Below, in pieces: positions 5,152-24,468 of a stretch of DNA of 40,101 nucleotides (its first letter is position 1; every line of letters begins with the position of its first letter). Made by a program: the position numbers and the translations under genes. The notes beneath the pieces are model-generated. The model worked only from the letters and a program-made list of their open reading frames with translations, was not told where the DNA came from and ran no database searches. This stretch comes from Carboxylicivirga caseinilyticus (lineage in GTDB: Bacteria > Bacteroidota > Bacteroidia > Bacteroidales > Marinilabiliaceae), in the NCBI GenBank assembly GCA_025499705.1, contig JAFMVE010000051.1, positions 1 through 40,101 of the forward strand. Reading direction: 5' to 3'.

Positions 5152-5169
5152 ATTTAATCTTAAAAAATA

Positions 5170-5208
5170 AATAATAACCCCTGATTTTAATAATCAGGGG
5201 TTATTATT
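5170..5208. terminator. Perfect 17-bp hairpin terminator
   Basis: The arms 5170-5186 and 5192-5208 are exact reverse complements around a 5-base loop. They have a CCCCTGA/TCAGGGG core and A/T-rich outer ends, so an A-tract and a T-tract lie on the two sides. It starts 18 bases after the stop of the beta-helix gene and should end that transcript. Its symmetry would also let it act on the other strand. Confidence 0.8.
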
Positions 5209-5385
5209 TAATGTAATATTATTAAAAGTTAGAATTTTAAAATTAAAATTACAGCTATTTAATGCTAAATAATTCATGTTGGTCAAAAAGAAATAATTTA
5301 CAAATATTGTTTGATTTAGATTGTTTACTTTAAACAGATTTAAGTAGTTTAATTAATCTATTAATTAGTATCTATACATAATGTT

Positions 5386-6549: not shown

Positions 6550-6576
6550 GAACATTAAAACTTAAAACATTACTTT

Positions 6577-7833: not shown

Positions 7834-7883
7834 TATGGTGAATTTTAATTTAGGTGTAAAAGAAATATTAATAAAATTTCATT

Positions 7884-7915
7884 TATGAAAGTTAAACAAC
7901 AATTGAATACATTTG
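7884..7915 (+). promoter_or_regulatory. Candidate Bacteroidota-type promoter
   Basis: TACATTTG at 7908-7915 matches the TAnnTTTG -7 element of the Bacteroidota primary sigma factor. A weak -33-like TATG lies about 20 bases upstream (7884-7887). It points to the lipoprotein gene starting at 7945. This is a consensus match only. Confidence 0.4.
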
Positions 7916-7944
7916 TTTAAATCCAAGGTAAAAACAAATATAAA

Positions 7945-8817: not shown

Positions 8818-8860
8818 ATTTAAATATTCCAGTAATAATTCATTTAAAACTCTTTTGTGA

Positions 8861-9775
8861 CTAATCAATCTTATAGTTTTGCTTCATAAAGGCAATGATT
8901 TCACGGGTGAACACTTCTGCCGAATGACGCATTAAATGACTCTCATCAAAAAAACTGTCTTCCCTTAAATACAATGAATCATTTTGATTATAGACATAAT
9001 AGTCTACTTCTTTACCGCATAAGCTTTTTATTCTTTCTTCAAAAGCAGGGCTGTGAGGTTTGTAGTTTGGAGGGAATACAATAATTAATTTAGTACCGGA
9101 ACCTTTTATTTGCTGAATCATAGTTTTAAAGGTATTAACCAACTCTTCACTTTCCTGATCAAATGCATAAGAATCATCATTAATAAAAGGATAATTCCAA
9201 TCCTTGTTATACCACGATATTGGCATGGAACCACAGGATAACAATGAATCATGCGGGGTAAATTTTTTAGTCCTCAAATCAAAATTTGATTTATTCAATC
9301 TATTCAGGAGTAATAATTGGGAAAAAACTTTTTCCTTATTATCTATCTCTGCCAATTTTTTCCAGACAAATGGATATTTTATCAGTGGATATAAGCGATC
9401 TTTCCGGAACATCACCGTTCTCTCTGGAATAAGTTCCTGGTTATCATCAACAACCAATATAGTATATTTAGGAACTTTATTAAATTTAAACAGAGCTTCA
9501 AAAAGAAAAGAATGGAATGAAACATCCGAACCGGGATAACAGATATTATAAGCAGACAATGTTAAGCTATCCTGAATAATAGAGGCAATGACATCCCTTC
9601 CTCCTCTTGATGAACCAGCAACGATGACATCTTTATTCATATTCCCATTAAGAATCATCTCCAGCCGTTTGTCAATTTCTGATTCAGCTGACCGATTGGC
9701 AACTAAATAGAAGGCCTTATCCAACAACCAGAATAAAGTGAGAAAAACAAAGATTTTAAAATATAATTTGCCCAT
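8861..9775 (-). CDS. Membrane-anchored SGNH (DltD/AlgJ-like) partner of MBOAT
   Basis: This 304-aa protein has an N-terminal membrane anchor (about residues 6-26) and an outward SGNH-type domain. The nucleophile block is VIVAGSSRGGRD, with Ser56 in the GDS-equivalent position. The distal block is FFDESHLMRHS, with Asp277 and His280. Such proteins pair with AlgI/DltB-type acyltransferases and finish acyl transfer to a polysaccharide outside the inner membrane. Its start codon overlaps the stop of the MBOAT gene (TAATG), so the two are translationally coupled. It is the last gene of the long minus-strand run. The family is clear by motif and context; the acyl group is unknown. Confidence 0.82.
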   Translation of the reverse strand: MGKLYFKIFVFLTLFWLLDKAFYLVANRSAESEIDKRLEMILNGNMNKDVIVAGSSRGGRDVIASIIQDSLTLSAYNICYPGSDVSFHSFLFEALFKFNKVPKYTILVVDDNQELIPERTVMFRKDRLYPLIKYPFVWKKLAEIDNKEKVFSQLLLLNRLNKSNFDLRTKKFTPHDSLLSCGSMPISWYNKDWNYPFINDDSYAFDQESEELVNTFKTMIQQIKGSGTKLIIVFPPNYKPHSPAFEERIKSLCGKEVDYYVYNQNDSLYLREDSFFDESHLMRHSAEVFTREIIAFMKQNYKID

Positions 9776-11220
9776 TAAAACTGAAAATAGATAAAACTTT
9801 GAACATCATTCTTAAAAACAATAATCACTGCCATTAACCAAAAATAAAGCCCCCATCTGAGCGAGCAATATAATGTGCCTTTTTTTTGCCATCCTACACT
9901 ATAACGCGAAAACAGTGCCGGATAATCATTAGCCAATAATTCTCCGGTCATAAAAATAATAACCAATAGTAAGCTGAACAATAACACCACTTTTTGATTA
10001 ATTGGTAATATCAAGGCATCCCAATGCCCTCCCAGGCCTGATAAAAAACTGAACGCTTTACCAAGATCCGGCGAAAAGAAAAAAACCAAAGAAAAGGCAT
10101 AGAATAAATAAGTTAAGCCCCGGCCTGTCCATATTCTTAAACTTCCGGGCCATTTTGTAAAAAAACGTTTTCTCCAGCCTTTGGTGAAAAACTCATAGAT
10201 AATGGCAATAGCCTGAATAACACCAAGTATCATAAAGTTCCATCCGGCACCATGCCATATGCCAAATAAGGTCCATGTTAAAACCAGAGCATAAATTGGT
10301 GCGAGATTCCCCCATTTACGTCTTCGAAACATGGTTTGCTTAAAAATATAGTCACTAAACCATAACGACAAAGACATATGAAACTTTCTCCAGAAAAGGG
10401 ATACATTTTCTGCAAAAAACGGACGGCTAAAATTCGGCAATAAATTGATTCCGAACATCCTGGCAATACCCAATGCTATATCTGTATATCCTGAAAAATC
10501 AAAATACAAATAGAGAGGTTGAAGCAAAATTACTGTTCCTAATAAAGTCGCGTTTGCGGAGGAAATATCAGAATAAGCCACAGTTATTAAGGGTGCCAAT
10601 TGATTGGCAATAACTACTTTTTTAAAGGCCCCTATCAAGGCTAACCGTAATCCTTCTATTATATTTTCTTGCTTAAAAACAACTGTTTTTTTTAATTGTG
10701 GTAGAAAGTGATTGGAACGCTCAATTGGTCCGGATAAAAACTTAGGAAAAAAGATTAAATAGAGTAAGAAATCAATGAAATTTTTATCCGCCTTTTCCCA
10801 ACCCATTTTTATATTAATCAAATAACCAATGGATTGAAGGGTAAAATAGGAGATGCCAATTGGAATAATGAGATTGGATAAGGTAGTAAAAGTAAAATTA
10901 AAATCCAGTAATTCAATAAACGGATCAATAGCAAATGAGGAATATTTTAAAATAACCAGCTGTCCTATATTTATCAGCAGTCCTGTCCGAAATATCCATT
11001 TTCTGCTTTTGGCATTCTCTAGCTTAATACCAATGATATAGTTTACCAAACCATAAACAAGTACATAAAGTAACAAAAAATAGCTATAACTGGCTACAAA
11101 CCCTCCACTTAATATAACTAACAATGTAGATCTGTACTTGTGATTAAGCAGATAATAAATAAATACTGCTCCTAAAACAATTAAAGTAAATTCAATAGAT
11201 ATTATATCCATAATGATCAT
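9775..11220 (-). CDS. MBOAT O-acyltransferase, AlgI/DltB type (first copy)
   Basis: This is a 481-aa multi-pass inner-membrane acyltransferase that passes an acyl group across the membrane for attachment to a polysaccharide. Family marks are FFPKFLSGPIERS near 158-169, YLYFDFSGYTDIALG near 238-251, FWRKFHMSLSLWF with His281, and the catalytic WHGAGW with His323. The C-terminus is FIYFQF, a motif common in this family. The start may be ATG at 11220 or 11211 (MIIM). It is coupled to the SGNH gene by a one-base overlap. A second MBOAT/SGNH pair lies at 13263-15609 in the opposite gene order, so the polysaccharide may carry two kinds of O-acyl group. Confidence 0.92.
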   Translation of the reverse strand: MIIMDIISIEFTLIVLGAVFIYYLLNHKYRSTLLVILSGGFVASYSYFLLLYVLVYGLVNYIIGIKLENAKSRKWIFRTGLLINIGQLVILKYSSFAIDPFIELLDFNFTFTTLSNLIIPIGISYFTLQSIGYLINIKMGWEKADKNFIDFLLYLIFFPKFLSGPIERSNHFLPQLKKTVVFKQENIIEGLRLALIGAFKKVVIANQLAPLITVAYSDISSANATLLGTVILLQPLYLYFDFSGYTDIALGIARMFGINLLPNFSRPFFAENVSLFWRKFHMSLSLWFSDYIFKQTMFRRRKWGNLAPIYALVLTWTLFGIWHGAGWNFMILGVIQAIAIIYEFFTKGWRKRFFTKWPGSLRIWTGRGLTYLFYAFSLVFFFSPDLGKAFSFLSGLGGHWDALILPINQKVVLLFSLLLVIIFMTGELLANDYPALFSRYSVGWQKKGTLYCSLRWGLYFWLMAVIIVFKNDVQSFIYFQF

Positions 11221-11300
11221 GCCTTAAGAAAATCATACGATTATACACAGTATAATAATAAGGCGAACAATTAATATGACGGGGGATGCTTATTTTTTGA

Positions 11301-12452
11301 TCAATCAATAAATGAAAAAAACATACTCAAAGCCTTTTTTATCCTATCCCTATCTTCTTTATCCAGATTTGATCCGGAAGGTAAACATAAACCATTGTTA
11401 AAAAGGGCTTCTGAAACACCGGTAAGATAGGCATCATAGCATTTAAATACTGGTTGTAAATGCATGGGCTTCCATAATGGACGCGTCTCTATATTCTCTT
11501 CTTCCAATTTTTGTTGAAGAATTAAACGTTGAATACCGGTTACTTCCGGATTAATAATGATAGTAGTTAACCAACGGTTTGAGTAAAATCCTTCTGGTTC
11601 AGGTTGAAAGGAAACTCCCTTTATTCCTTTAAAAATATCCCAATAGAACACAAAATTCTCCCGCCGTTTCTTTACACGCTCATCTATAACTTCCATTTGA
11701 CCACGCCCTAAACCGGCCAGTACATTACTCATCCGGTAATTATACCCGATTTCGCTATGTTGATAATGAGGTGCCTGATCTCTGGCCTGAGTAGCTAAAA
11801 ACCGGGCCTTTTCAATATAAGCCTTTTCATTGGAAAGTAAAGCCCCTCCTCCGGAAGTAGTAATTATTTTGTTCCCATTAAAAGATAAAATACCCAGTTC
11901 TCCAAATGAGCCTAAAGGTTTTCCATTCAATTGACTACCTAGTGCTTCAGCTGCATCTTCAATAACTGGGATACCATAGGTACTGGCAATCTCCATAATT
12001 TCATCCATTTTAGCCGGCATCCCATATAAATGCACCACAATGATAGCCTTAACTTTCTGCAGCTTTCCATTCAATTTACGCTCTTCCAGAGCCTGCTTCA
12101 AAAGAATCGGATCCATATTCCAGGTTTCCGGTTCACTATCAATAAAAACAGGCTTAGCTCCCTGATAAATAATAGGATTAACCGATGCTGAAAAAGTAAA
12201 AGTAGAAACTAGTACTTCATCTTCTTTTTGCACACCTAAAAGAACTAAAGCCAGATGAATAGAAGCTGTCCCTGAACTTAAAGCTGCTACATGATTAACA
12301 TTACAATAGCCAGCAATAGCTGATTCAAAAGCATCCACATTAGGACCTAATGGCGCTATCCAGTTCTGATCAAAAGCCTCTTGTATGTACTTTTGTTCAT
12401 CCCCTGACATATGAGGACTTGATATATATAGACGTGTTTTTTTTGATTTCAT
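11301..12452 (-). CDS. DegT-family sugar aminotransferase, PglE-like
   Basis: This 383-aa PLP-dependent aminotransferase acts on a nucleotide keto-sugar. The frame extends to a TTG at 12470, but an ATG at 12452 gives the usual family N-terminus, so I use that. Marks are LYISSPHMSGDEQKYI, NWIAPLGPN, ALSSGTASIHLAL, the Asp of EDAAEALGS, and the Schiff-base lysine Lys195 in NGNKIITTSGGG. The sequence looks closest to PglE-type enzymes, which make UDP-4-amino-4,6-dideoxy-GlcNAc. It lies next to a PglC-like transferase, which fits initiation with an N-acylated 4-amino sugar. No PglF-like dehydratase or PglD-like acetyltransferase is in the window, so that step must be encoded elsewhere or done by one of the GNATs. 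Confidence 0.92.
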   Translation of the reverse strand: MKSKKTRLYISSPHMSGDEQKYIQEAFDQNWIAPLGPNVDAFESAIAGYCNVNHVAALSSGTASIHLALVLLGVQKEDEVLVSTFTFSASVNPIIYQGAKPVFIDSEPETWNMDPILLKQALEERKLNGKLQKVKAIIVVHLYGMPAKMDEIMEIASTYGIPVIEDAAEALGSQLNGKPLGSFGELGILSFNGNKIITTSGGGALLSNEKAYIEKARFLATQARDQAPHYQHSEIGYNYRMSNVLAGLGRGQMEVIDERVKKRRENFVFYWDIFKGIKGVSFQPEPEGFYSNRWLTTIIINPEVTGIQRLILQQKLEEENIETRPLWKPMHLQPVFKCYDAYLTGVSEALFNNGLCLPSGSNLDKEDRDRIKKALSMFFSFID

Positions 12453-12578
12453 ATACTTAAACTTGATCAAACAATTAAGTTGAAATTACCATAAAGATAG
12501 TAAAGCATTGATGATTACAAAATACATGAACTACTTAATCTATCTTAAAATAAGAGCAGCCATGAGAATCTAGTTGGT

Positions 12579-13163
12579 TTATTTAAAACCAATTATCGTT
12601 TGAATAATTAATTTAATGTCAAGACCTAAAGTATGATTATAATAATAATCCAAATTAATTTTAACCTTATCAGGCCAAATTACCTCATCATTAAATTTCT
12701 TAGGATCATTAACAGTTGATAAAAGCTCTTCTTCATTAACATATTTTAAAGAGGCCGGACCTGTAATTCCTGGCCGTAATTCCAATATTTTTTTTTCCTC
12801 TCCTATTAATTTATCGTAATATTCCGGCATATCCGGACGCGGCCCTACAAGGCTCATATCTCCAATTAATACATTCCATAGCTCCGGCAGTTCATCCAGT
12901 TTATACTTACGCAAAATAGAACCCAAAGGTGTAATTCTGTTTTCACCTTTTATGGAGATCGAATTACCGCCATGTCCAACTGTCATGGTCCTGAACTTAT
13001 AAATAGTAAAAGGCTGACCAAATCGACCTACCCTTTGTTGGCAAAAAAACACAGGCGATCCCATATAGATTTTAATCAAAAGAATAATAACTATATAAAT
13101 TGGCAAGAGTAATATCAAGCCTATCAATGAAAACAACAGATCACTAATTCTCTTTACAAACAT
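12579..13163 (-). CDS. Initiating phosphoglycosyl transferase, PglC/bacterial sugar transferase family
   Basis: This 194-aa monotopic membrane enzyme transfers a sugar phosphate from a UDP-sugar to undecaprenyl phosphate, the first step of repeat-unit assembly. It has the small PglC-like architecture. There is one N-terminal hydrophobic segment (about residues 8-30), then QQRVGRFGQPF, YKFRTMTVG, YKLDELPELWNVL with the catalytic Asp-Glu pair, GDMSLVGPRPDMP and LRPGITGPASL. About 100 bp lie upstream and 126 bp lie between its end and the PglE-like start, so it may be a separate transcript end. With the neighbouring PglE-like enzyme, the likely first sugar is a diNAcBac- or QuiNAc-type amino sugar. 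Confidence 0.93.
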   Translation of the reverse strand: MFVKRISDLLFSLIGLILLLPIYIVIILLIKIYMGSPVFFCQQRVGRFGQPFTIYKFRTMTVGHGGNSISIKGENRITPLGSILRKYKLDELPELWNVLIGDMSLVGPRPDMPEYYDKLIGEEKKILELRPGITGPASLKYVNEEELLSTVNDPKKFNDEVIWPDKVKINLDYYYNHTLGLDIKLIIQTIIGFK

Positions 13164-13262
13164 TCCATTTTTCTTAAATATAAATACAAAGACATCAAGT
13201 ATTCATTAATAAATAATTTAATTATTCTTTTAAATTCCATTTTCATTTGGGTTTCTTCCCAT

Positions 13263-14699
13263 TCAAAAATTGAAATAAATGAAATTACTGCCTTTAAACA
13301 CACCAAAAATAAATATCACAAGAAGTACAGAAAAATAAGATAGCCATCTTATGATTACATTTTTATTATTGAAGAATAAAAATTTGTTAGGATAAAATTC
13401 ATCTCTGAATTCTGATATTAATAATATAGCTATGCCCAAAAAAGCGTATAGAAGGACAGTTTTATCAATATAAACCGGACCAAAATGTGTAAACATTTTT
13501 ATAACTGCCAAAATACCTTCTGACACAGTATGTCTTATACCACCAGTCAGAAACGAAAATGCAAATATTATATAAGTAATAATTATACTTATTAATATAT
13601 ACCACACTTTCTTTGTTAAATTAAAGCGCCGTTCTATCTCAGATTTTCTTTTTTTTGTGATTGCTTCAAGACTTATAAAAAATCCTTGATAAAAGGCCCA
13701 AACTAAAAAAGTAAGGCGTGCTCCATGCCACATTCCCATAATAAAGAGTGTCAATGTTATCGTAAATACTACACCTTTCATTTTATATTTCCGCAGCATA
13801 AATGACAATGGTGTATACACATAATCTAATATCCACGATATCAACGACATATGCCACCTCCTCCAAAACTCAGAAACTGACATTGCAAAAAACGGACGAT
13901 TAAAGTTTGGTCGTACTTTTAGTCCCATAACACTTGCCGCTCCAATGGCAATTAATGAGTAGCCGCCAAGGTCACAATAAATTTGCATGGGATATAACAA
14001 TGTTGCAAGAAATATTGTTCCACCTGAATGTTGATCAATACTTGATATTATAGGATCAATATAAACGGATAACCTGTCTGCAACTACCAGTTTCATAAAA
14101 TAGCCCCATAATATCATTTGCAATCCCGTTACTACCATTGGGTAATTAAATTCCATCTTTTTCTTAAACTGAGGAAGCATACTAGGCGCGCGTTCTATAG
14201 GTCCGGATAGAACCAATGGGAAATATGACAGGAATAAGGTTATTAAACCGAGATTCTTTTCAGCCTCAATTTCTTCATTGTAAACATCAACAATGTATCC
14301 AATAGCCATAAATGTATAAAATGAAATTCCGATTGGTAACATCCAGTTGATTTGTGGTAAATGCCATCTTAATCCAGTCAGTTCTAAAAGTGAAAAAATA
14401 CTTTCGTTGACAAAATTGTAATACTTAAAAAAGAAAAGTGGCAGTAAAACCAACAGTAAACCTATTGTCAAAAGGATCTCTTTTTTTTTATAAGACTTAG
14501 ATTTGTCAATAAATAGGGCAAAACTATAAGTCACAATTGAGACTCCTAAAAGTAATAGGGTAAAAACAGGTTGAATATTAGTATAAAAGTAAAGGCTTGC
14601 CAATAGAACAAATCCCCATCTCAACTTTTGAGGAAGTATAAAATAAATAAATACAACAAGAGGGTAAAAAAGTAGAAAACTTAACGATGTAAAGACCAT
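13263..14699 (-). CDS. MBOAT acyltransferase, DltB/AlgI type (second copy)
   Basis: This is a 478-aa multi-pass acyltransferase. Marks are YFPLVLSGPIERAP near 159-172, YCDLGGYSLIAIG near 241-253, EFWRRWHMSLISW with His283, MWHGARLTF with His325, and a C-terminal FIYFNF. It lies 28 bp after an SGNH gene, which itself follows a carrier protein and an adenylating enzyme. This gives the four components of the Dlt pathway in one row: adenylase, carrier, SGNH (DltD-like) and MBOAT (DltB-like). I infer that it takes an aminoacyl or acyl group from the small carrier at the inner face of the membrane. A simple O-acetyltransferase role cannot be excluded. Confidence 0.9.
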   Translation of the reverse strand: MVFTSLSFLLFYPLVVFIYFILPQKLRWGFVLLASLYFYTNIQPVFTLLLLGVSIVTYSFALFIDKSKSYKKKEILLTIGLLLVLLPLFFFKYYNFVNESIFSLLELTGLRWHLPQINWMLPIGISFYTFMAIGYIVDVYNEEIEAEKNLGLITLFLSYFPLVLSGPIERAPSMLPQFKKKMEFNYPMVVTGLQMILWGYFMKLVVADRLSVYIDPIISSIDQHSGGTIFLATLLYPMQIYCDLGGYSLIAIGAASVMGLKVRPNFNRPFFAMSVSEFWRRWHMSLISWILDYVYTPLSFMLRKYKMKGVVFTITLTLFIMGMWHGARLTFLVWAFYQGFFISLEAITKKRKSEIERRFNLTKKVWYILISIIITYIIFAFSFLTGGIRHTVSEGILAVIKMFTHFGPVYIDKTVLLYAFLGIAILLISEFRDEFYPNKFLFFNNKNVIIRWLSYFSVLLVIFIFGVFKGSNFIYFNF

Positions 14700-14727
14700 A
14701 TAATTTTACAATTACTTATTTTATATT

Positions 14728-15609
14728 TTAATGAAAGCTATTCTCGTTATAGAGGTTATAAAGAAATTCAGTAAGTTTTTTTGCTCCATATTCATTTAAA
14801 TGACTATTACCAAGCCAATCTGTGGAATCAAACATCTGAGTACACTGCTTTGCATTATTAAGGTTCAAATAATGTAATTTATTGTCCCCATTATACTCTA
14901 ATATATGTAATCCAACATCAATATCATTCTGTGTATTCTTATAGCCAGGCATACCAATCAATACAAAGTCAATTTTATTGACATCGCACAGTGAATCCAT
15001 CTTAAAAAGGAACTTTGCCTTTTCAAAGTCACAGATACTTATACTGGTCTTTGTCTTCTGACTATAATCAGTATGATCTGGGACCGTTTTTTTTGTTCTT
15101 AACTGTCCCATTACAATTCTCGCCTCTCTATGATCCTTTGATAATACCTTTTTTACTATTTCAACTGCTAACCATTGGAATTTTATCACAGGAATACTCC
15201 TAATACTAAATTTATCCATTAAATCATAACTATACTCGATGGCAGGGTGAAGAGGTGGAGGTGTAAAATTCTTATAATCAACACCAGGAGACAAACCCAA
15301 CATTACACATTTTGTAGTATTAGTCTTCAAATAATTTGATAATTGAATATAACTTGCTTCAATATTTGCACCTCCTAAAGCGAAATTATAAGCGCTTACT
15401 CCATTTTTTGTGAAAAATTCTGAATCAATGCCATCAAATGAAACACTATTACCTAAAAAAATACAATCGAATTTTTGGTTTTTCATTTTTGAAATCATCA
15501 ATGCTTTTGACAATTCAAAATCGTACCTTTTTAAGTACCACATGTATGTATAATTAAATAATACAAAGACTGATACAAAAAATAGTATTTTTAAGCTTAA
15601 TCTTTTCAT
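14728..15609 (-). CDS. Membrane-anchored SGNH (DltD-like) protein
   Basis: This 293-aa protein has one N-terminal membrane segment (about residues 7-24) and an outward SGNH-like domain. The first block is IFLGNSVSFDGID with Ser55 as the likely nucleophile. The distal block is LGNSHLNEYG: His270 is present, but the position three before it is Gly267, so the normal D-x-x-H Asp is missing or shifted (Asp264 is close). It may therefore be weakly catalytic or use another Asp. It sits between the carrier protein gene and an MBOAT gene, the place expected of a DltD-like final transfer protein. It differs clearly in sequence from the first SGNH copy. Confidence 0.78.
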   Translation of the reverse strand: MKRLSLKILFFVSVFVLFNYTYMWYLKRYDFELSKALMISKMKNQKFDCIFLGNSVSFDGIDSEFFTKNGVSAYNFALGGANIEASYIQLSNYLKTNTTKCVMLGLSPGVDYKNFTPPPLHPAIEYSYDLMDKFSIRSIPVIKFQWLAVEIVKKVLSKDHREARIVMGQLRTKKTVPDHTDYSQKTKTSISICDFEKAKFLFKMDSLCDVNKIDFVLIGMPGYKNTQNDIDVGLHILEYNGDNKLHYLNLNNAKQCTQMFDSTDWLGNSHLNEYGAKKLTEFLYNLYNENSFH

Positions 15610-15652
15610 TAATCAAAATAGGTTTAATGTATAATAGACACTAATAAAAGAT

Positions 15653-15892
15653 TCATAATTTTGAAATTATTATATCTACCATTTCACCAACATTATGCAT
15701 TTTATTTAGCTCTTTAAGTCTAAATTTAATAGAAAATGTCTCTTCAACTTCAGTTATCAATAACATGTGAGAAAGAGAATCCCAATTTTCGACATCGTTT
15801 GCTGTCAGTTCATCTGAAATTTCAAGGGAATCATTACTTAATACCTTTCGGAAAATTCCGGTTAACTTTTCATAAACATCTGATCTATCCAT
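15653..15892 (-). CDS. Acyl/aminoacyl carrier protein (first copy)
   Basis: This is a 79-aa carrier protein. Ser39 in the NWDSLSHM motif should carry the phosphopantetheine arm, and the usual DSL signature is intact. Length, helix pattern and acidic character fit DltC-like or NRPS-type free-standing carriers. It lies 12 bp after a GNAT gene and just before the DltD-like and MBOAT genes. An adenylating enzyme two genes upstream probably loads it. It could pass its cargo to the MBOAT, to the GNAT, or to both. Confidence 0.9.
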   Translation of the reverse strand: MDRSDVYEKLTGIFRKVLSNDSLEISDELTANDVENWDSLSHMLLITEVEETFSIKFRLKELNKMHNVGEMVDIIISKL

Positions 15893-15904
15893 AATACAAT
15901 TTAT

Positions 15905-16561
15905 TTAAATATTTCTTTTTAATTGAAATTTAATTTTTGATGGCAGATAATTTAACACATCATCATTTTCTGCCTCTACTTTCTTCACAATCTCAAACCC
16001 AACCCTTTCATTGGCTTTTATCGCAGGTATATTGCAACCAAATACTTGGGTATAGACTTCAGATATTTCTGGATTATTAATCTTCACTCGCCTTATTATT
16101 TCCTCTGTTAACATACCCAAAATTCCTTTATTACGATAGTTATCTATAACATAACCAGCTCCCTTCTGAAGACTTCCAGTTACATAATCAATACGAACCT
16201 GCTTTAATAAATTATTAACTCTTGCCGCATTTTTAATTGACTCTTGGGGTAATACAAATCCAAGCAAATTACCCTTTATTTCAATGGAAGAAACTCCTCC
16301 AGCACCTTCCACCCATGCGCTTAAAGCTGCTATGACGACACCATTATCTTCAGCAACAAGAAAACTTGAAACGGATAATTCACACCCATCAATTTCTTCT
16401 TCAAGCATTTGAGTTATATACTTTTTAGCCTCAACTTCCGTAATACCAAATACAGAAGAATAAGATAAAATATCTGTACCACCCTTTTCCGCCTCAATAA
16501 TAGTATTAACTAAAAACGGAATATCTTCAATGCTGGCACTTCTTAATACATATTCACTCAT
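15905..16561 (-). CDS. GNAT-fold N-acyltransferase, paralogue 1
   Basis: This 218-aa GNAT-fold protein is clearly paralogous to the gene at 18076: both start with EYV-F/L-R-x-A, share IIEAEK, and have an identical IKGNLLGF block at about residues 95-102. The CoA-pyrophosphate motif R/Q-x-x-G-x-G/A reads R143-N-K-G146-I-L148, so the final Gly/Ala is Leu. The region around 118-135 (YVTGSLQKGAGYV) is also unusual. It overlaps the adenylase gene by 8 bp and is 12 bp from the carrier gene. I infer transfer of an activated amino acid or acyl group to an amine, perhaps with a carrier-bound rather than CoA-bound donor. Acetyl transfer to an aminoacyl group is an alternative. Confidence 0.78.
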   Translation of the reverse strand: MSEYVLRSASIEDIPFLVNTIIEAEKGGTDILSYSSVFGITEVEAKKYITQMLEEEIDGCELSVSSFLVAEDNGVVIAALSAWVEGAGGVSSIEIKGNLLGFVLPQESIKNAARVNNLLKQVRIDYVTGSLQKGAGYVIDNYRNKGILGMLTEEIIRRVKINNPEISEVYTQVFGCNIPAIKANERVGFEIVKKVEAENDDVLNYLPSKIKFQLKRNI

Positions 16562-18074
16562 TTTTCAAAATTTTTAGTAATTCCAAACGATCTGTTTTTC
16601 CATTGGTATTAATTGGAAAGCTTTCAACAAGCAGAAATTTGGTCGGTATCATGTAAGATGGTAATTTTGATTTCAAATATTGTCTTACAACATCTTCATC
16701 TAACTTATTATCTTCAATAAACATAGCAATTTCATGATTCCCAGAATGACTTTCGTAAACAACAGCCACTGCATTTTTACCATTAACTGCATTTCTGGTA
16801 TGATACTCAATTTCGCCCAGTTCTATTCTGTACCCCTGGATCTTTACCTGATAATCCAATCTTCCACTCAACATTAAATCCCCATCATCGTCTATATAAC
16901 AACCATCACCCGTTTTATAAAATCTTATTTGTTTATTATTTTGTTCTATTAGAATGAAAGAAGAGTCATTTTTCACCTGGTTTTTCCAGTATCCGGCTGT
17001 TACCTGATCTCCTGCAATACACAGTTCTCCACTCATATTATTGGATAATATTTCACCCGAATCATTACAAATAATGGCTTGAATGCCAACCATTGGTTTA
17101 CCTATACAAAACATGCCATTTAATTCTTTATTGAAACCCTTTCTCTTGAATTCATTAAATGTACAATAAATGGTAGCTTCGGTAGGCCCATACAAGTCAA
17201 ATATTTTAGCATTTGGAATACACTCCGACCACTCTTCAATCAGGTTTAATGGAGCCGCTTCTGCAGTAAGAATATTATAACGTAAATGAGGCAAATCGAT
17301 TTCATCAAAATAAGGTCTTAAAAACCGAACCATTGAAGGAGCCATCGCTCCAAATGTAAGTTTATGATCTTCTAAAAGTTCGGATGCATAACTATATTTA
17401 ATACGATCATGAGGAATTGTATAGGTACAGGCTCCTTTGGTTAATGGCACAAGAAAAGATTGCACTGAAACGTCAAAAGTTAGATCAAAGCATTGTAAAC
17501 ATCTGTCTTTTTCATCAATCTTAAAACCTATTTGCCAAAAAGCCTCCATAAAAGCTCCAACATTTTTTCTCGTTATTGTGACTCCTTTGGGTTGCCCTGT
17601 ACTACCTGACGTAAAAAGAATATATGCCAATTGATTACTATCATATGAACATAATTCCAATTCATAATCATTAAATAATAAATTCTTACTTAAAACGGTT
17701 TTTACATCATTCAAAAAAGAAGTGCTTGATGAATCTAAAACTAATTCAATATTAGCTTGTTTTACAATATCCATACCCCTTTCTTTGGGGTGCCCGGGAT
17801 GTATCGGTACATAAGCTAGACCTTCCAACCAAATAGCAATTATCGATGCATAAGTTTCCAAGTCGTCATTAGCTATTAATCCTACGTTACTACTAATGTC
17901 ATTCCTTTTCTTAAGGTATTCCCTTATTTTTGAAATACATTGAGCAAAATCTTGATAGGTATAATATTGCTCATCTATAAAAAAAGCATTTTTAGTAGGG
18001 AAAAATGCTATTGCATGCAGAATTGGTTCTAAAACCTGTACTTCAAATTTATTTAACGGATGTGAATGGGTCAT
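16554..18074 (-). CDS. Amino-acid adenylating enzyme, DltA/NRPS A-domain type (first copy)
   Basis: This is a 506-aa free-standing adenylation enzyme. It activates a carboxylic acid with ATP and loads it on a carrier thiol. Core motifs are complete: FTSGSTGQPKG (154-164), FDVS with Asp201, the residue that binds the substrate alpha-amino group in NRPS and DltA enzymes, LYGPTEATIY (294-303), YKTGD, GRLDYQVKIQGYRIELGEIE, and the C-terminal NTNGKTDR with Lys493. An amino acid substrate is therefore likely; which one cannot be read safely. No condensation or thioesterase domain is present here or nearby, so a peptide product line is unlikely. It overlaps the next GNAT gene and follows the other GNAT by one base. 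Confidence 0.9.
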   Translation of the reverse strand: MTHSHPLNKFEVQVLEPILHAIAFFPTKNAFFIDEQYYTYQDFAQCISKIREYLKKRNDISSNVGLIANDDLETYASIIAIWLEGLAYVPIHPGHPKERGMDIVKQANIELVLDSSSTSFLNDVKTVLSKNLLFNDYELELCSYDSNQLAYILFTSGSTGQPKGVTITRKNVGAFMEAFWQIGFKIDEKDRCLQCFDLTFDVSVQSFLVPLTKGACTYTIPHDRIKYSYASELLEDHKLTFGAMAPSMVRFLRPYFDEIDLPHLRYNILTAEAAPLNLIEEWSECIPNAKIFDLYGPTEATIYCTFNEFKRKGFNKELNGMFCIGKPMVGIQAIICNDSGEILSNNMSGELCIAGDQVTAGYWKNQVKNDSSFILIEQNNKQIRFYKTGDGCYIDDDGDLMLSGRLDYQVKIQGYRIELGEIEYHTRNAVNGKNAVAVVYESHSGNHEIAMFIEDNKLDEDVVRQYLKSKLPSYMIPTKFLLVESFPINTNGKTDRLELLKILKNE

Positions 18075-18075
18075 A

Positions 18076-18726
18076 TTATTTTAATAAATCTTTGTAAAAT
18101 ATATGTTTGCTATTTGAAGGAAGTAATTGCTTAATCCTTTCATCTGCGGAAGTATAAACTTTCTTTGTCTCAAACTTCATTAATTTAAAGTTGAGTATAG
18201 AAGGTTTATTATTCGAAAAAACCTGACAATATACTCCTTTAGCTTCCGGATGCAATCTTATTTGCTCCAGAAATAATCTAACCAGAAGTAATCTCCCCTG
18301 ATGTTCAGGAACTACATAAGCCGGACCAAGCCAAAACTCACCCGGTTTGTAATCTGTAGACAAAGCAGAACAAATATGATTGAGTTTATTTGCTTTAATC
18401 AAAGCTTCTCTTGGCAATAAAAAACCCAATAAGTTTCCCTTAATAGTAACCGAAGAATGACCATTAAGACCTTCAATCCAGGCATTCAATGCTGCAACGG
18501 GTTTCTTTTTGTATTCCGCTACTATAAAACCTGATAAGGATAAATCACAATCTTCTACATCTTCTTCCAAAGCGCTCTTCAAAAGTTCTCTTACTTCTTT
18601 TTCCGACAATCCAAATAAAGATGAATAAGGTAATACTTCAGTACCTGATTTTTCCGCTTCAATAATAGTTTCTACAATAAATTGCAAATCGCTTTTATTT
18701 GCCCTTCTAAAAACATATTCATCCAT
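18076..18726 (-). CDS. GNAT-fold N-acyltransferase, paralogue 2 with broken CoA motif
   Basis: This 216-aa protein is the close paralogue of the GNAT at 15905, with matching residue numbering across most of the length. The normal R/Q-x-x-G-x-G/A motif reads Q143-G-R-L146-L-L148, so both conserved glycine positions are Leu. Binding of CoA in the usual way is doubtful. It lies 23 bp after a divergent carrier protein gene and one base before the next adenylase gene. I infer a transferase adapted to an aminoacyl carrier, but loss of activity is also possible. Confidence 0.76.
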   Translation of the reverse strand: MDEYVFRRANKSDLQFIVETIIEAEKSGTEVLPYSSLFGLSEKEVRELLKSALEEDVEDCDLSLSGFIVAEYKKKPVAALNAWIEGLNGHSSVTIKGNLLGFLLPREALIKANKLNHICSALSTDYKPGEFWLGPAYVVPEHQGRLLLVRLFLEQIRLHPEAKGVYCQVFSNNKPSILNFKLMKFETKKVYTSADERIKQLLPSNSKHIFYKDLLK

Positions 18727-18749
18727 ATATATTGCTATTATTTCTCATT

Positions 18750-19049
18750 TTATTTCAACAATTCAATAATATATTCAGCAAGATTTTTTATACTACTAAA
18801 AGGATTAATTTCTTGCTTAAATGAATGCTCACTAACCAGATCAATATTTTCTTTAAAATGTTCCGTAATCTTACTTTCTATTAGTATTAGAAGTGTTACC
18901 AAACCCAACGAACCAATACCACTTTCTTTTCCATATAGAATTGTATCAGGACTTTTTACCAAATGTTCCGAATAATCTACTGATTGATTAAAATCTTCTA
19001 TTGCCAGATATATCTGCGTATAAACAGTATTTATCATCACTTTATTCAT
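18750..19049 (-). CDS. Divergent carrier protein (second copy)
   Basis: This 99-aa protein resembles an acyl carrier protein. A four-helix layout can be followed, with SGIGSLGLVTLLILIE in the position of the phosphopantetheine helix and SSIKNLAEYIIELL as the last helix. Ser47 aligns with the modified serine, but the preceding Asp of the DSL motif is Gly46. It also has a longer N-terminus and a 15-residue insertion after helix 2. Its start overlaps the end of the adenylase gene by 8 bp, so the pair is co-translated, and that enzyme probably loads it. The start may instead be the inner ATG at codon 5. Confidence 0.75.
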   Translation of the reverse strand: MNKVMINTVYTQIYLAIEDFNQSVDYSEHLVKSPDTILYGKESGIGSLGLVTLLILIESKITEHFKENIDLVSEHSFKQEINPFSSIKNLAEYIIELLK

Positions 19050-20532
19050 ATAGTTTTTTCAATGCTAAGCGATCTACTTTACCATTTGAATTTAAAGGTA
19101 GCAACTCAAGCATTTTATATTTGGAGGGAATCATATAGGGAGGTAATTTTTTTCTTAAAAATTGGTCCAATTTTATGTAATCAAATATAACGTTTTCAAG
19201 TAATAATGCAATCTGCATTAATCCGGATTTATTTCTAAAAGTAATTGCAACAGCATTAGCTCCATTTAGAAAAACTCGTGCATGGGCTTCAATTTCACCT
19301 AATTCTATTCTATAACCCTGCACCTTTACCTGATGATCCAACCTGCCAGCCAACATAATATCCCCTTCTTCATCTATAAAACAATTATCTCCTGTTCTAT
19401 AAAACCTATATTCCTCACCATCAATTATTTTATAAACAAAACTAGATTTATTCTTTTCTATATTATTCCAATACCCCTGGGTCACTGTCTCACCTGAAAT
19501 ACATAGCTCTCCCATTCCATTAACAGATTGTATACAATCATCTTCATCTATTACAACAATTCTTATACTCTTAAACGGTTTACCAATTGTCATCATTCCA
19601 TTTAATTCCTTATTTAATGCATTTCGATAAAATTCTGAATAAGTACAATAAATAGTTGCTTCTGTTGGTCCATATAAATTTAGAATCCGGGCATTGGGGA
19701 TACAGTGCTTCCATTCATCAATCAACTGAACAGCTGAAGCTTCTGCACACAAAATATTCGTCTTCAAATAAGGAAGTTCAATCTCATCGAAATAGGATCT
19801 AAGGTACCATATCATTGATGGTGGAATAGCCGCAAATGTAATTTTATGAACCTCCATTAATTCAATGGCAACTACTGGTTTAATACTCTCATGGGAAACA
19901 GTGTAGATACATGCTCCTTTTAACAATGGTATTAAGTATGACTGAATCGAAATATCAAAGGTCAGATCAAAATACTGTAAACAACGGTCTTCTTTGGATA
20001 ATTCAATACCTAGATGATTAAAAGAATGAACAAAACTGGCCAAATTAAGTCTGCTAATTGGCACCCCTTTGGGTTTACCTGTACTACCGGAGGTATATAG
20101 AATATAGGCCAATTGATCATCATTCACTTTTTTATGTTCCAGATTAAATTCTCGAAAAGTTAACTCTTTACTTTTTATAAGTTTAACTTCTTCAATTTCA
20201 ATATTCCCGGAAGAATCAATTATTAGATCAAGCTTAGCATCATTGATTATTTCCTTTTTCCTGTCATCAGGATAGCAAGGATGAAGTGGCACATAAGCTA
20301 AGCCTTCTAACCAAATAGCTACAATAGCAGCATAGGTTTCCAGATCATTATTAGCTATCAATCCTATATTTTTGCTGGAAAAATCCTCTTTCTGAAGCTG
20401 AGTCCGGATTTTTGAAATAGTCTTGGAAAATTCAAGATAGGTATAATTTAAATTACAAATGTGAAAAGCATTAGAATCCTTGTATCTCTCAAAAATACAG
20501 ATCAAGTTAGATAAAATAAATTGACCAAACAT
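19042..20532 (-). CDS. Amino-acid adenylating enzyme, DltA/NRPS A-domain type (second copy)
   Basis: This 496-aa paralogue of the adenylase at 16554 has intact core motifs: YTSGSTGKPKG (147-156), FDIS with Asp193 for the amino group of the substrate, LYGPTEATIY, YRTGDN, GRLDHQVKVQGYRIELGEIE, and NSNGKVDR with Lys485. The two enzymes are alike along their full length, so they come from a duplication. Separate carriers and separate GNATs suggest that they activate different amino acids, or load different carriers with the same one. It is 37 bp downstream of a third GNAT gene and overlaps its carrier gene. Confidence 0.9.
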   Translation of the reverse strand: MFGQFILSNLICIFERYKDSNAFHICNLNYTYLEFSKTISKIRTQLQKEDFSSKNIGLIANNDLETYAAIVAIWLEGLAYVPLHPCYPDDRKKEIINDAKLDLIIDSSGNIEIEEVKLIKSKELTFREFNLEHKKVNDDQLAYILYTSGSTGKPKGVPISRLNLASFVHSFNHLGIELSKEDRCLQYFDLTFDISIQSYLIPLLKGACIYTVSHESIKPVVAIELMEVHKITFAAIPPSMIWYLRSYFDEIELPYLKTNILCAEASAVQLIDEWKHCIPNARILNLYGPTEATIYCTYSEFYRNALNKELNGMMTIGKPFKSIRIVVIDEDDCIQSVNGMGELCISGETVTQGYWNNIEKNKSSFVYKIIDGEEYRFYRTGDNCFIDEEGDIMLAGRLDHQVKVQGYRIELGEIEAHARVFLNGANAVAITFRNKSGLMQIALLLENVIFDYIKLDQFLRKKLPPYMIPSKYKMLELLPLNSNGKVDRLALKKLYE

Positions 20533-20569: not shown

Positions 20570-21157
20570 TTATTTAACAAACTCAATCAACAAATAATCC
20601 CCGGGTAATTCTTTAACTATCTTCATGTTAGAATTTTTTCTATGAGCATTTATCACTAATTGATTATTTTTTGAAATAGTAGATAAACATTTAAAATTCA
20701 ACTCCCAGGCAATATTATACATTATCCGGTTCATTAAACCTCCAATTCCACGTCCCCTATAATCAAAATCAATCACCCTGCCTACAAAACATTTTTTATT
20801 GGCAAAAAATCTTAGAAAAAAATAACCGACCAACCTCTCTTCTTCAAATACTCCCATCATCAAAAAGGCTTTTTTCTTAAGTTGCCTTTTTATAGATATT
20901 AAATCAAATCCATGAGGATTGAAATAACGCATATCCTCTTTCTTCTGATGGTTTAGCAACATGGTTATTGCTTCGGCGTCTCCGGCATTCAGTATTCTGA
21001 ATTCATAATTGGGCTTAAGTTCTTCAGAAAAGACTTTATGTATTGTTTTTTTTAAGCTATTATGATGAAGGATATAAAAAACAAGTCCATTTATCCACTC
21101 AATAATGTGCCAGATAAATACCAGACGGTGTTTAATAAATAGCAAAAGTTTTTCCAT
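20570..21157 (-). CDS. GNAT-family N-acetyltransferase with hydrophobic N-terminus
   Basis: This 195-aa protein has a hydrophobic N-terminal stretch (about residues 11-31) that could bind the membrane, then a GNAT domain. The CoA motif is intact: R134-G-R-G137-I-G139 within DFDYRGRGIGGLM. This contrasts with the two damaged GNATs downstream. It is not a close paralogue of them. Its start overlaps the stop of the ATP-grasp gene (TAATG). It probably acetylates an amino sugar or an amino acid group during repeat-unit synthesis; formyl or other short acyl transfer is possible. Confidence 0.82.
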   Translation of the reverse strand: MEKLLLFIKHRLVFIWHIIEWINGLVFYILHHNSLKKTIHKVFSEELKPNYEFRILNAGDAEAITMLLNHQKKEDMRYFNPHGFDLISIKRQLKKKAFLMMGVFEEERLVGYFFLRFFANKKCFVGRVIDFDYRGRGIGGLMNRIMYNIAWELNFKCLSTISKNNQLVINAHRKNSNMKIVKELPGDYLLIEFVK

Positions 21158-22167
21158 TACATGTACTTTAGCAACTTATCCTTTAACCCCTTTTTAACAG
21201 GCAACTGCCATAATAACTTACACCAGTTATGATTACCCTCAATTAATTCAGGTCCATACTCACTAATGGCAATATCCCAACCTATGGATTGATTGGAAGA
21301 ATTGGAAAGTGCAGCTTTTGTAACAAGTTCTATTGTTTCTGACCAAAATGGTATTTTAAAGCCTTCAATTGACTCATTAGAAACAGGATGGATTGAAACA
21401 TCCTCTTTTGTAATATCGCTATAAACGCCAGGTCCTGATACCGATCCATTGATAACATCAATAGGTGCTGCCAAATTACCAGCTGCCATATTATCGACTT
21501 CAGAATTAACCGTAATTCTTAAACGTGCTCCAAGTATATCAACTTCCCCATTGTTAAGCTGAGTAAAAATTCTAATGGTATTTAATCCCGAATCAGACAA
21601 TTGCATTAACATTGGATGCTGAATAACATACTCTTCTATCAAATCAAATTTGTTTTGCATCATAAAATGAAGTAAAGAATCAGCATTATAATCATCACAC
21701 TTTATGACCTTGACTTCTGCTCCAACCTGTCCCAATGATCCTTTAAGTACTAATTTCCCCGATTTATTATTAAATATTTGGTTCAACTTTTCCTTATCAT
21801 TAAATGCCTGCCTATATGTTAATACTTTGCGTCTGACGTATGATGAATATTTACCTAAGAATTGAATCTTATCCTCCAAAACTTTTCTGTTATTTTTAGG
21901 ATTCATCTTTAATTGAAATTCATACATAAATCCTGTACCCACCCATTTTTTTCTTTCATTTGTATCAATTTCAAAAAAACGGAAATAAAAATAATCCTTT
22001 AATGATATGTTGTATTTATAAACACAAACGATCATATCAACCAATAATGCACTTTTAGTCCTACCTGTAAGTTTTTTTGCATAATTCAGAAATTTTCTAA
22101 TTAATCCGAAATCTTCATTTTTCAGATAATAAAACAGATAGATGGTTCTGTTAACGAATTTCATCAT
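21157..22167 (-). CDS. Sugar-transfer-associated ATP-grasp protein
   Basis: This 336-aa protein resembles the ATP-grasp family found in capsule and EPS loci next to glycosyltransferases (TupA / sugar-transfer-associated ATP-grasp). Visible marks are VLKGSLGQVGAEV in the nucleotide-binding region, DLIEEYVIQHP, SGLNTIRIFT, and the C-terminal IGWDIAISEYGPELIEGNHNW that would carry metal ligands. Such enzymes join a carboxylate to an amine with ATP, so an amino acid-sugar amide is a reasonable product. It starts with ATG at 22167 or 22164 and is coupled to the downstream GNAT gene by one overlapping base. Confidence 0.82.
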   Translation of the reverse strand: MMKFVNRTIYLFYYLKNEDFGLIRKFLNYAKKLTGRTKSALLVDMIVCVYKYNISLKDYFYFRFFEIDTNERKKWVGTGFMYEFQLKMNPKNNRKVLEDKIQFLGKYSSYVRRKVLTYRQAFNDKEKLNQIFNNKSGKLVLKGSLGQVGAEVKVIKCDDYNADSLLHFMMQNKFDLIEEYVIQHPMLMQLSDSGLNTIRIFTQLNNGEVDILGARLRITVNSEVDNMAAGNLAAPIDVINGSVSGPGVYSDITKEDVSIHPVSNESIEGFKIPFWSETIELVTKAALSNSSNQSIGWDIAISEYGPELIEGNHNWCKLLWQLPVKKGLKDKLLKYM

Positions 22168-23314: not shown

Positions 23315-24436
23315 CTAATTCCTTCTCATAATATCCAAAGCGTCACCCGACGATAGAAACTCAACATCAGGCCACCTCTTAACTATTGTATCAAGTAATT
23401 TCTTCAATTCATTTAATCCTATCTCCCTGTTATCCGGATTAATACTTCCTGTAAAATTAGCTCGATGAGTACTTATATTTGCCGGTTTACCCCATCGAAA
23501 TGCGGCCTCGATCTGACTCAGAGTAAATTCTACCCCCATGTATTCCGGATCAGTTGGCTCAAATGCACAGTTCCGGGTATAATAAATCAAACCCTCCGGG
23601 CCACGTTGACCTGTTGTAAAAGGTCTGAATTTAATTTCCCCATTGGTTGCAGGATATGGCATTTTTCGTGTTACATACAAGTACCTTATTCCATTACTGG
23701 CCACCTCATGATCTAAATCAGGATGAAACAAACCATTAGATGGTGTAAAAACTCGAGGCAAATATCCAAATGTCTTCTCAAACAATTCAACACTTTCCCT
23801 GATAGAATTTATTAAAAAGGGCTTCTGCTCATCGTTATCAAAATAAAACTCAGGTCTGAATTCTTTCAATATATCCGGAAGATCATTAATACCTAAGGCA
23901 ACAAAACCGTGGTTAAATGCTTTCAATAATTCCGGATGGCCTGATTTTAAATGTTTCATCCAGTGCTGAACCGAAATGTGCTCTTTACCATGCAACTCAG
24001 GTACAAAAATTCCCTCTTTAATCCCTTCCTCCCATTTATCAAACACCTTTTGTCCAGGATAATACCTATCCAGTGTTGTCGTAAAATCCTCAAAATAATA
24101 GGTATCAAATCCTGACTTTTTAATTTTTTCAAAATCAGGATTGGCCATATTGGTCATCGCAGTTATCACCGGATGATTACCATTTTTAGCTTTAACTGAT
24201 TTTAAAACTGTGAATAGCTGATCAAAATCCTCTTTATTGGCTAAAGAATCATACCGATTAAAACGGCTTGTATTAACAGGTAGTCCATTATTATTCAATT
24301 CATCGAAAACGGCATTGGAAGGCATTCTTATTCCTCCCCAATCATCACATTCGATGATAATTAGTTTTCTATTCGTTCTCCAGCCCGGTATGTTTTTCAG
24401 ATTATTAACCAGGTACCGCCTTAATTTCTTAATCAT
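23315..24436 (-). CDS. Polysaccharide deacetylase-like protein (first copy)
   Basis: This protein is 373 aa from the ATG at 24436. The frame runs on to a TTG at 24466, but the paralogue at 32796 is also 373 aa and starts at the matching place. Conserved blocks in both are CDDWGGIRMP with the Asp31-Asp32 pair, PVITAMTNMANPDFEKI, ELHGKEH (H-x-x-x-H), and STHRANFTGS near the C-terminus. The DD and HxxxH motifs suggest a metal-dependent NodB/CE4-like fold, and these proteins are commonly called polysaccharide (de)acetylases. No signal peptide is visible, so it may act in the cytoplasm on a lipid-linked or nucleotide sugar. Activity is unproven. Confidence 0.78.
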   Translation of the reverse strand: MIKKLRRYLVNNLKNIPGWRTNRKLIIIECDDWGGIRMPSNAVFDELNNNGLPVNTSRFNRYDSLANKEDFDQLFTVLKSVKAKNGNHPVITAMTNMANPDFEKIKKSGFDTYYFEDFTTTLDRYYPGQKVFDKWEEGIKEGIFVPELHGKEHISVQHWMKHLKSGHPELLKAFNHGFVALGINDLPDILKEFRPEFYFDNDEQKPFLINSIRESVELFEKTFGYLPRVFTPSNGLFHPDLDHEVASNGIRYLYVTRKMPYPATNGEIKFRPFTTGQRGPEGLIYYTRNCAFEPTDPEYMGVEFTLSQIEAAFRWGKPANISTHRANFTGSINPDNREIGLNELKKLLDTIVKRWPDVEFLSSGDALDIMRRN

Positions 24437-24468
24437 CAATGGTTTATAATTGATTATAAATATCAATA

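Follow-up and report, generated by a model that had tools for sequence, protein, structure and literature searches.

Among the pathways that pair an MBOAT protein with an SGNH protein, the Dlt system is set apart as the one that uses a carrier protein, and a C-terminal hexapeptide has been shown to act as the acyl shuttle, for PatA and, on DltX, for Dlt (both points from the accessible part of PMC12148441). The described systems that come closest to the locus reported here include Dlt itself (DltA, DltB, DltC, DltD and DltX; Gram-positive bacteria), the MBOAT-SGNH pairs for O-acetylation of the PatAB and AlgIJ type, and stand-alone adenylation domains of the nonribosomal peptide synthetase (NRPS) type that occur with a carrier and a tailoring enzyme. 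A block of eight genes in Carboxylicivirga caseinilyticus (contig JAFMVE010000051.1) shares features with each of them, and holds in addition two GNAT-type proteins and a second loading unit. The window, meaning the whole stretch of DNA analysed, comprises bases 1-40101 of this one contig in a genome of 5.65 Mb. With middling confidence we read the block as an MBOAT/SGNH system that is fed by carrier proteins and acylates a surface polysaccharide, with an N-acyl-aminoacyl group as its cargo; the reading is built on gene content and order, conservation, folds, motifs and co-occurrence, all of which are observed.

Gene order of the block

All eight open reading frames lie on the minus strand between positions 13263 and 20532, and their place and order, including the swapped order in one of the two adenylase-carrier-GNAT trios, are as a first-pass annotation of this DNA had described them. 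In order of transcription they are:

19042-20532, minus strand: ADE2, a stand-alone amino-acid adenylase (TIGR01733 just below cut-off; pocket code DIQAICLIY)
18750-19049, minus strand: ACP2, a probable carrier of unusual type, longer than ACP1 (position between ADE2 and GNAT2; Ser-Leu motif)
18076-18726, minus strand: GNAT2, a divergent GNAT with Gln for the motif-A Arg (identity to GNAT1, motif table, tree)
16554-18074, minus strand: ADE1, a stand-alone amino-acid adenylase (TIGR01733 just below cut-off; pocket code DVQAITLIY)
15905-16561, minus strand: GNAT1, a GNAT-fold transferase (AlphaFold model, Foldseek, neighbourhoods of relatives)
15653-15892, minus strand: ACP1, a carrier protein with a WDSLSH motif (PF00550 over cut-off)
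14728-15609, minus strand: SGNH1, an SGNH-fold protein with an N-terminal helix (predicted model, Ser55/His270)
13263-14699, minus strand: MBOAT1, with the C-terminal hexapeptide FIYFNF (PF03062, 69.8 bits)

Successive genes are separated by -8, 23, 1, -8, 12, 43 and 28 nucleotides, and spacing this tight makes it likely that the block is a single transcription unit; 99 nucleotides lie between MBOAT1 and the sugar-phosphate transferase gene that follows. No condensation or thioesterase gene was recognised in the block by Pfam and curated-model searches, and genome-wide a single gene of the PPTase family scored above cut-off.

Recurrence of the gene set in other genomes

A GNAT alignment of five rows, used to scan named genomes, gave 23 loci (L020-L042): L020-L040 belong to Bacteroidota, L041 to an uncultured bacterium and L042 to a gammaproteobacterial metagenome-assembled genome. 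Within six genes of the GNAT there is an adenylase in 19/23, a carrier in 16/23 and an MBOAT in 14/23, counts in which L027 and L039 are near-identical and the GNAT of L033 was counted from its open frame; the profiles used were built from members at these same loci, and the scores of those members are not independent. Co-occurrence in related genomes, the check that the first-pass annotation had proposed, thus shows a recurring core of adenylase, GNAT, carrier and MBOAT/SGNH. In a second sample, drawn from the order, the GNAT turned up in 10 of 294 other genomes, with an adenylase nearby in seven of the ten, a carrier in eight and an MBOAT in seven, and with none of the three near the GNAT of L071; in a sample of the phylum, 2 of 394 other genomes had it, at three loci (L081-L083). 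The GNAT is rare and patchy, yet widely spread. A random gene would have an adenylase equally near in about 4% of cases, a rough figure that takes 19 first-look candidates in 5.65 Mb and about 12 kb per place, and because the set recurs elsewhere it is more than a product of chance.

The order adenylase-GNAT-carrier-MBOAT-SGNH is found in L022, L024 and L026, and in L023 up to the end of the contig; L021 has the same order with a thioesterase-like gene inserted between GNAT and carrier, and contains two thioesterase-like genes in all, one of them assigned to 4HBT_2 by Pfam. GNAT and carrier are fused directly upstream of MBOAT-SGNH in L031 (the carrier part being identified by alignment and profile, with Pfam PP-binding below cut-off), and an adenylase is fused to a VOC domain in L030. 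A VOC gene or domain is present in 8 of 38 stretches (L027, L028, L029, L030, L032, L037, L039 and L072), and VOC stands beside FkbH in L118, L122 and L126; the VOC partner is similar to methylmalonyl-CoA epimerase, which acts next to a thioester, at a score of 70.5 bits, below the cut-off of 114.95.

Another cluster of this general kind is present in the same genome (L017, G000:C22:1-16000; about 4364-10961), where an adenylase, a long GNAT and a carrier occur with a polysaccharide deacetylase, together with a protein of 419 amino acids that appears flippase-like by eye; the gene order is similar in L018 and L019, and partly so in L016.

The carrier and the MBOAT as a possible platform with exchangeable charging genes

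The strongest reason for tying ACP1 to MBOAT1, and for regarding the GNAT as an upstream tailoring step, is that the carrier-MBOAT link survives exchange of the activating enzyme. A search with the ACP1 profile gave matches in 46 of 294 other genomes, 55 places when the window's own genome is included, and 20 of these places were read, chosen by score among those not already counted as GNAT loci; no window-type GNAT is present in the 20. FkbH lies within four genes of the carrier in 12 of them (L116-L122, L126, L127, L129, L130 and L133) and an adenylase in five (L115, L123, L125, there with a long GNAT, L128 and L132); L124 and L134 have neither, and L131 has a weak adenylase match five genes away. 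FkbH was assigned by Pfam in L030 and L083, and elsewhere by 50-59% identity to L083. An MBOAT occurs in the stretch at 18 of the 20 carrier places, the two without being L118 and L122, and the link between carrier and MBOAT therefore holds though the activating enzyme is exchanged.

GDSL/SGNH proteins are confirmed by Pfam in L073 and L075, with similar gene sizes and order in L076-L078, and in L075 (3073-6416) two GDSL/SGNH proteins lie between carrier and MBOAT, one of them with LysM domains, which hints at peptidoglycan as the acceptor there. Where FkbH is near an ACP1-type carrier, an MBOAT is found in 10 of the 12 stretches, and glyceryl-type acylation of surface polymers is possible; a literature search for FkbH with MBOAT gave nothing among the matches listed, subscription journals being mostly outside its coverage. 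The occurrence of the carrier family beside FkbH and MBOAT suggests a broader modular platform, with one carrier family beside MBOATs and with charging genes of three or more kinds: an adenylase, an adenylase with a GNAT, or FkbH. If the proposed chemistry is right, Bacteroidota would decorate surface polymers, perhaps including peptidoglycan at L075, with a range of tailored acyl groups; many unassigned MBOATs would gain a function, and the link from gene set to glycan substituent would be directly testable.

The adenylases

ADE1 and ADE2, which are 53.8% identical, match Pfam AMP-binding (190 and 192 bits) and fall just short of the model for amino-acid adenylation domains, TIGR01733 (298.6 and 312.7 bits; cut-off 317.4). 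With the DltA models they score 261 and 264 bits (NF003417, cut-off 476) and 250 and 249 bits (TIGR01734, cut-off 559.85), and the top-scoring solved relatives of ADE1 include LgrA, GrsA and DltA. The Lys of the C-terminal GKxDR motif is present in both.

Pocket codes were taken from an alignment of 35 family adenylases to PheA. The Asp noted at 201 and 193 of the two adenylases in the first-pass annotation is correctly positioned, and this amino-binding residue (Asp235 equivalent) is present in 35/35 of the aligned proteins. For DltA, the accessible parts of two studies give Asp197 as the residue that binds the substrate amino group and Cys269 as a main determinant of D over L choice (PMC4176424; PMC8972799). 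Among the 35 codes, 16 are DVQ[AVS]IT[FL][IV]Y, two are the ADE2 code (the window and G003), eight are DLMLLC[VM]IF and nine are other; a DltA-like Leu-Met-Cys pocket occurs in eight of the 35. The codes of ADE1 (DVQAITLIY) and ADE2 (DIQAICLIY) differ at two of nine positions, and where DltA has Asp-Leu-Met-Cys, ADE1 has Asp-Val-Gln-Thr and ADE2 has Asp-Ile-Gln-Cys. At the position presumed equivalent to Cys269 there is Cys in ADE2 and Thr in ADE1, a difference that is a lead, not proof, towards a different enantiomer or cargo. Judged by these codes, it is possible that the two adenylases serve two different cargos.

The GNATs, carriers, MBOAT1 and SGNH1

With Pfam, GNAT1 scores 18.7 bits, short of the cut-off of 20.7. 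Its AlphaFold model (pLDDT 95.8) has the N-terminal acetyltransferase Ard1 as best PDB match in Foldseek, and the GNAT sequence profile is also closest to N-terminal (alpha-amine) acetyltransferases; because so confident a model matches GNAT acetyltransferases, the predicted fold settles the identity of GNAT1 as a GNAT-fold transferase despite the Pfam score. The motif-A Arg is present in 22 of 26 members of the family, with Lys in L038; GNAT1 has the fold with motif A, and GNAT2, 40% identical to GNAT1, does not have the Arg. GNAT2, ACP2 and SGNH1 had no Pfam match at E up to 0.1.

The PP-binding match of ACP1 is above cut-off (PF00550, 22.8 against 20.8 bits). Comparison of ACP2 with ACP1 at the profile level gave no significant match; the Ser-Leu of ACP2 is kept in 3/3 orthologues, and the protein is probably a carrier. 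MBOAT1 matches PF03062 at 69.8 bits, with Tyr475 as the shuttle Tyr and His325, and a C-terminal F[IV]Yxx[FY] together with the His is found in all 22 full-length MBOATs of the first set (one fragment left out). The predicted model of SGNH1, of medium confidence (pLDDT 76.8), matches SGNH hydrolases, then DltD and PatB, with modest TM-scores of 0.37-0.47 by query length; the match to DltD (3bma) has an E value of 1e-4, PAF acetylhydrolases match better, and Ser55 and His270 are kept.

History of the doubled block

Usually the genes occur as a single set that contains one GNAT. Among the loci read, the six charging genes in window order (ADE2-ACP2-GNAT2-ADE1-GNAT1-ACP1) are found in one other genome, that of Marinilabiliaceae bacterium N1Y90 (G003, locus L020), where two MBOAT-plus-neighbour pairs follow them. 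The order in an uncultured Carboxylicivirga sp. (G005, locus L028) is one adenylase, VOC, ACP2, GNAT2, ACP1, MBOAT, SGNH; both organisms are of the same genus as the window.

The first-pass annotation had proposed duplication of the trio, a proposal that stands for the adenylases, as paralogues of one clade, and not for the rest. In the trees ADE1 and ADE2 each pair with a G003 orthologue (100/99) within a clade that also holds the G005 adenylase (92/92, open fork), and because both fall within this one clade their duplication looks local. GNAT2 sits on a long branch together with the G003 and G005 proteins (100/99) and GNAT1 groups with G003, L021, L022 and L024 (82/94); the two are not sisters, though the fork is weakly supported. 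One clean duplication of the whole trio is rejected on these trees and on the carrier profiles, which show no recognisable relation: the history of the GNATs may be older, and the carriers do not seem to be duplicates of recognisable age. Sets are multiplied in other ways elsewhere, with adenylase-GNAT twice and one carrier in L082, two GNATs after one adenylase in L079, two adenylases in L115, and two tandem operons in L021, the first with a longer GNAT-like protein.

Proposed mechanism

In the carrier-fed reading that we prefer, ADE1 (ADE2 in the second unit) would activate a small amino acid and load it on to the phosphopantetheine of ACP1 (probably ACP2 in the second unit). With the amino acid still bound to the carrier, the GNAT would then acylate its free alpha-amine, giving an N-acyl-aminoacyl cargo. 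MBOAT1 would take this cargo from ACP1 on to the Tyr of the hexapeptide at its own C-terminus, on the outside, and SGNH1 would pass it on from there to a polysaccharide hydroxyl. ADE2-ACP2-GNAT2 might provide a second acyl or aminoacyl unit for the same MBOAT, or might serve to form an amide on an amino sugar belonging to this locus. We infer the chemical steps, the nature of the amino acid and the choice of the locus polysaccharide as acceptor, and the GNAT step most of all. Groups of the proposed type do occur on the amino sugars of polysaccharides, namely N-acetyl-D-alanyl, N-acetyl-L-alanyl, N-acetylglycyl and N-3-hydroxybutyryl-L-alanyl (accessible part of PMC3210612).

Several observations weigh against this scheme. 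In that part of PMC3210612 the groups described are joined to amino sugars as amides and are not esters. There is no fixed link of the GNAT to MBOAT, because there are loci with GNAT and adenylase and without an MBOAT nearby: L025, L029, L030, L032, L040 (on a 6 kb contig), L074, L080, L082 and L083. It also occurs without a nearby adenylase, in L035, L036, L038 and L041 and in L071, L073, L077 and L081; in L034 it is on the strand opposite the adenylase-carrier-MBOAT set, in L037 it is the MBOAT/SGNH that is on the opposite strand, and in L042 no carrier was recognised. Conversely, adenylase-carrier-MBOAT sets without this GNAT are found in L015, L115, L123, L128 and L132. Within the block, the motif-A Arg is replaced in GNAT2 and two orthologues (Gln, Gln, Glu), and because of this loss GNAT2 may work without CoA or be degenerate; Pfam does not identify ACP2 as a carrier at E up to 10, and in SGNH1 a Gly occupies the position where DxxH usually has its Asp. 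Mixed use of one cargo, as ester in MBOAT loci and as amide elsewhere, is compatible with the data.

The surrounding polysaccharide locus

Genes for a glycosyltransferase (with others identified by eye) and for an EpsG-type protein surround the block, along with ATP-grasp genes, DegT aminotransferases and another MBOAT/SGNH pair. Three features lie downstream:

12579-13163, minus strand: Bac_transf, an initiating sugar-phosphate transferase (PF02397, 193.8 bits)
11301-12470, minus strand: a DegT-type aminotransferase, a possible source of amino sugar in the locus (PF01041, 329 bits; best PDB matches 1o61 and 4ztc, both of which we take to be PglE)
8861-11220, minus strand: the second MBOAT/SGNH pair, MBOAT0 (9775-11220; hexapeptide FIYFQF) and SGNH0 (8861-9775)

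The MBOAT0/SGNH0 pair has no adenylases of its own and is kept in L028 (60% and 56% identity). The proteins at 21157-22167 and 27747-28778 are ATP-grasp proteins (sugar-transfer associated; RimK-like), for which amide-forming roles are possible. Two related proteins of about 380 amino acids are encoded at 23315-24466 and 32796-33917, the first being a marginal match to GH57 (21.0 bits against a cut-off of 21.2), and the small protein at 32271-32657 within the polysaccharide locus, presumably four-helix-bundle-like, has a 72% identical copy adjoining the DegT gene of L034.

Alternative readings

Two separate routes might share the locus: adenylase, carrier and GNAT would aminoacylate a 4-amino (or 3-amino) deoxy sugar nucleotide at its amine, with the GNAT as the transferase, and MBOAT1/SGNH1 would carry out ordinary O-acetylation fed by acetyl-CoA. 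We consider this unlikely, and keep it at that level because the known N-acyl-aminoacyl groups are amides. The MBOAT-less loci fit it, and L025, from Ferruginibacter paludis, has an adenylase-GNAT-carrier set preceded by two FdtA genes and followed directly by DegT and a hexapeptide transferase, a 3-amino-sugar context; the amide route may apply in some loci such as this one. L025 also contains a NeuD-type sugar acetyltransferase (187.6 against a cut-off of 160.8), however, so that the GNAT is not needed there as sugar transferase. For the window itself, the closeness of the DegT protein to 1o61/4ztc, the lack of any NeuD/PglD-type gene above cut-off in the genome, and the presence here of MBOAT0/SGNH0, a pair of this type that lacks its own adenylases, are in its favour, but the genome has 16 weaker matches to the NeuD model. 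Also against separate routes are the ACP1-family carrier near MBOAT in many loci, even where the charging gene is FkbH; the GNAT-carrier fusion that precedes MBOAT in L031; and L015 (G004, a member of the window's genus; about 9654-13848), which has adenylase-carrier-MBOAT and no GNAT, plus a gene that aligns with the SGNH set although the SGNH profile gave no match. The L015 adenylase has one in-frame TAA stop, and the remaining neighbours match none of the window's genes.

Plain D-alanylation equivalent to Dlt, with the GNAT as a side activity and the ADE2 unit as a redundant or decaying copy, seems to us improbable. The four-part logic, the Leu-Met-Cys pocket in 8/35 family adenylases and the degenerate motif A of GNAT2 are what it would lead one to expect. 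Val-Gln-Thr in place of Leu-Met-Cys in ADE1, DltA and DltB scores far under the cut-offs, and a GNAT beside the adenylase in 19 of the 23 named loci are not, and decay of ADE2 is argued against because its pocket code is identical in two species.

A little less probable again is that the GNATs act as stand-alone condensing enzymes, with the two adenylase-carrier units forming a peptide synthetase that is split into two modules and lacks a condensation domain. The amine of aminoacyl-ACP1 would then receive an (amino)acyl group from ACP2 through a GNAT, after which MBOAT1/SGNH1 would esterify the polysaccharide with an N-acyl-aminoacyl or dipeptidyl group. The loss of the motif-A Arg in GNAT2 fits such a role, as do G005 (one adenylase, two carriers and one GNAT, then MBOAT), L082 (adenylase-GNAT-adenylase-GNAT-carrier) and L083 (adenylase, four GNATs, FkbH, carrier). 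It is very unlikely that the adenylases activate an acid other than an amino acid, be it a hydroxy, an aryl or a short fatty acid, for acylation of the polysaccharide: AMP-binding enzymes as a family take many acids and both adenylases stay just under the TIGR01733 cut-off, but the Asp235 equivalent is present in every aligned adenylase and the top solved relatives are amino-acid adenylation domains and DltA.

Comparison with known systems

Our preferred reading, a carrier-fed MBOAT/SGNH system with an N-acyl-aminoacyl cargo, is nearest to Dlt, with which the block shares an adenylase, a carrier, an MBOAT, an SGNH protein and the amino-binding Asp. The first-pass annotation had equated these four parts with DltA, DltC, DltB and DltD; their logic in a Gram-negative polysaccharide locus was upheld, whereas the curated DltA and DltB models are failed by wide margins. 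With the DltB model TIGR04091, MBOAT1 scores 164 bits against a cut-off of 375, and the candidacy of MBOAT1 as a specific DltB was dropped, as MBOAT0, without an adenylase of its own, scores alike (154). In Dlt the shuttle Tyr is on the separate DltX, whereas here the hexapeptide is on the C-terminus of MBOAT1. DltX is about 50 codons long, and the gaps in the block (at most 43 nucleotides, and 99 after MBOAT1) are too short for a separate DltX gene, small open reading frames elsewhere in the window having been left out of this search. Neither adenylase matches the D-Ala pocket, and the window adds a GNAT, a second adenylase and a second, probable carrier. By the features tested the block is not a member of the Dlt family, though we infer that it would work in a Dlt-like manner.

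The dra genes of Bordetella and other Gram-negative dlt-like loci are Dlt-like gene sets that are not known to include a GNAT or to be doubled. Neither Gram-negative dlt/dra loci nor a described adenylase-carrier-GNAT-MBOAT system was found among the matches listed in literature searches that mostly leave out subscription journals, and the former are not in the accessible part of PMC11279074 either.

With the MBOAT-SGNH pairs of the PatAB and AlgIJ type the block has in common the C-terminal FxYxxF and the His of MBOAT1, and an SGNH-fold partner with Ser and His. It differs from them in its adjacent carrier and adenylase genes: PatAB-type pairs use an acyl-CoA donor and no carrier, and here a carrier gene stands beside MBOAT1. 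From NRPS-type sets of adenylation domain, carrier and tailoring enzyme, which it resembles in the near-cut-off TIGR01733 scores and in LgrA and GrsA as relatives, it differs in that no condensation or thioesterase gene was recognised and in that the carrier adjoins an envelope MBOAT/SGNH pair. Carrier-fed MBOAT/SGNH acylation is already known; what the present gene set adds to it is the GNAT and, in this locus, a second loading unit.

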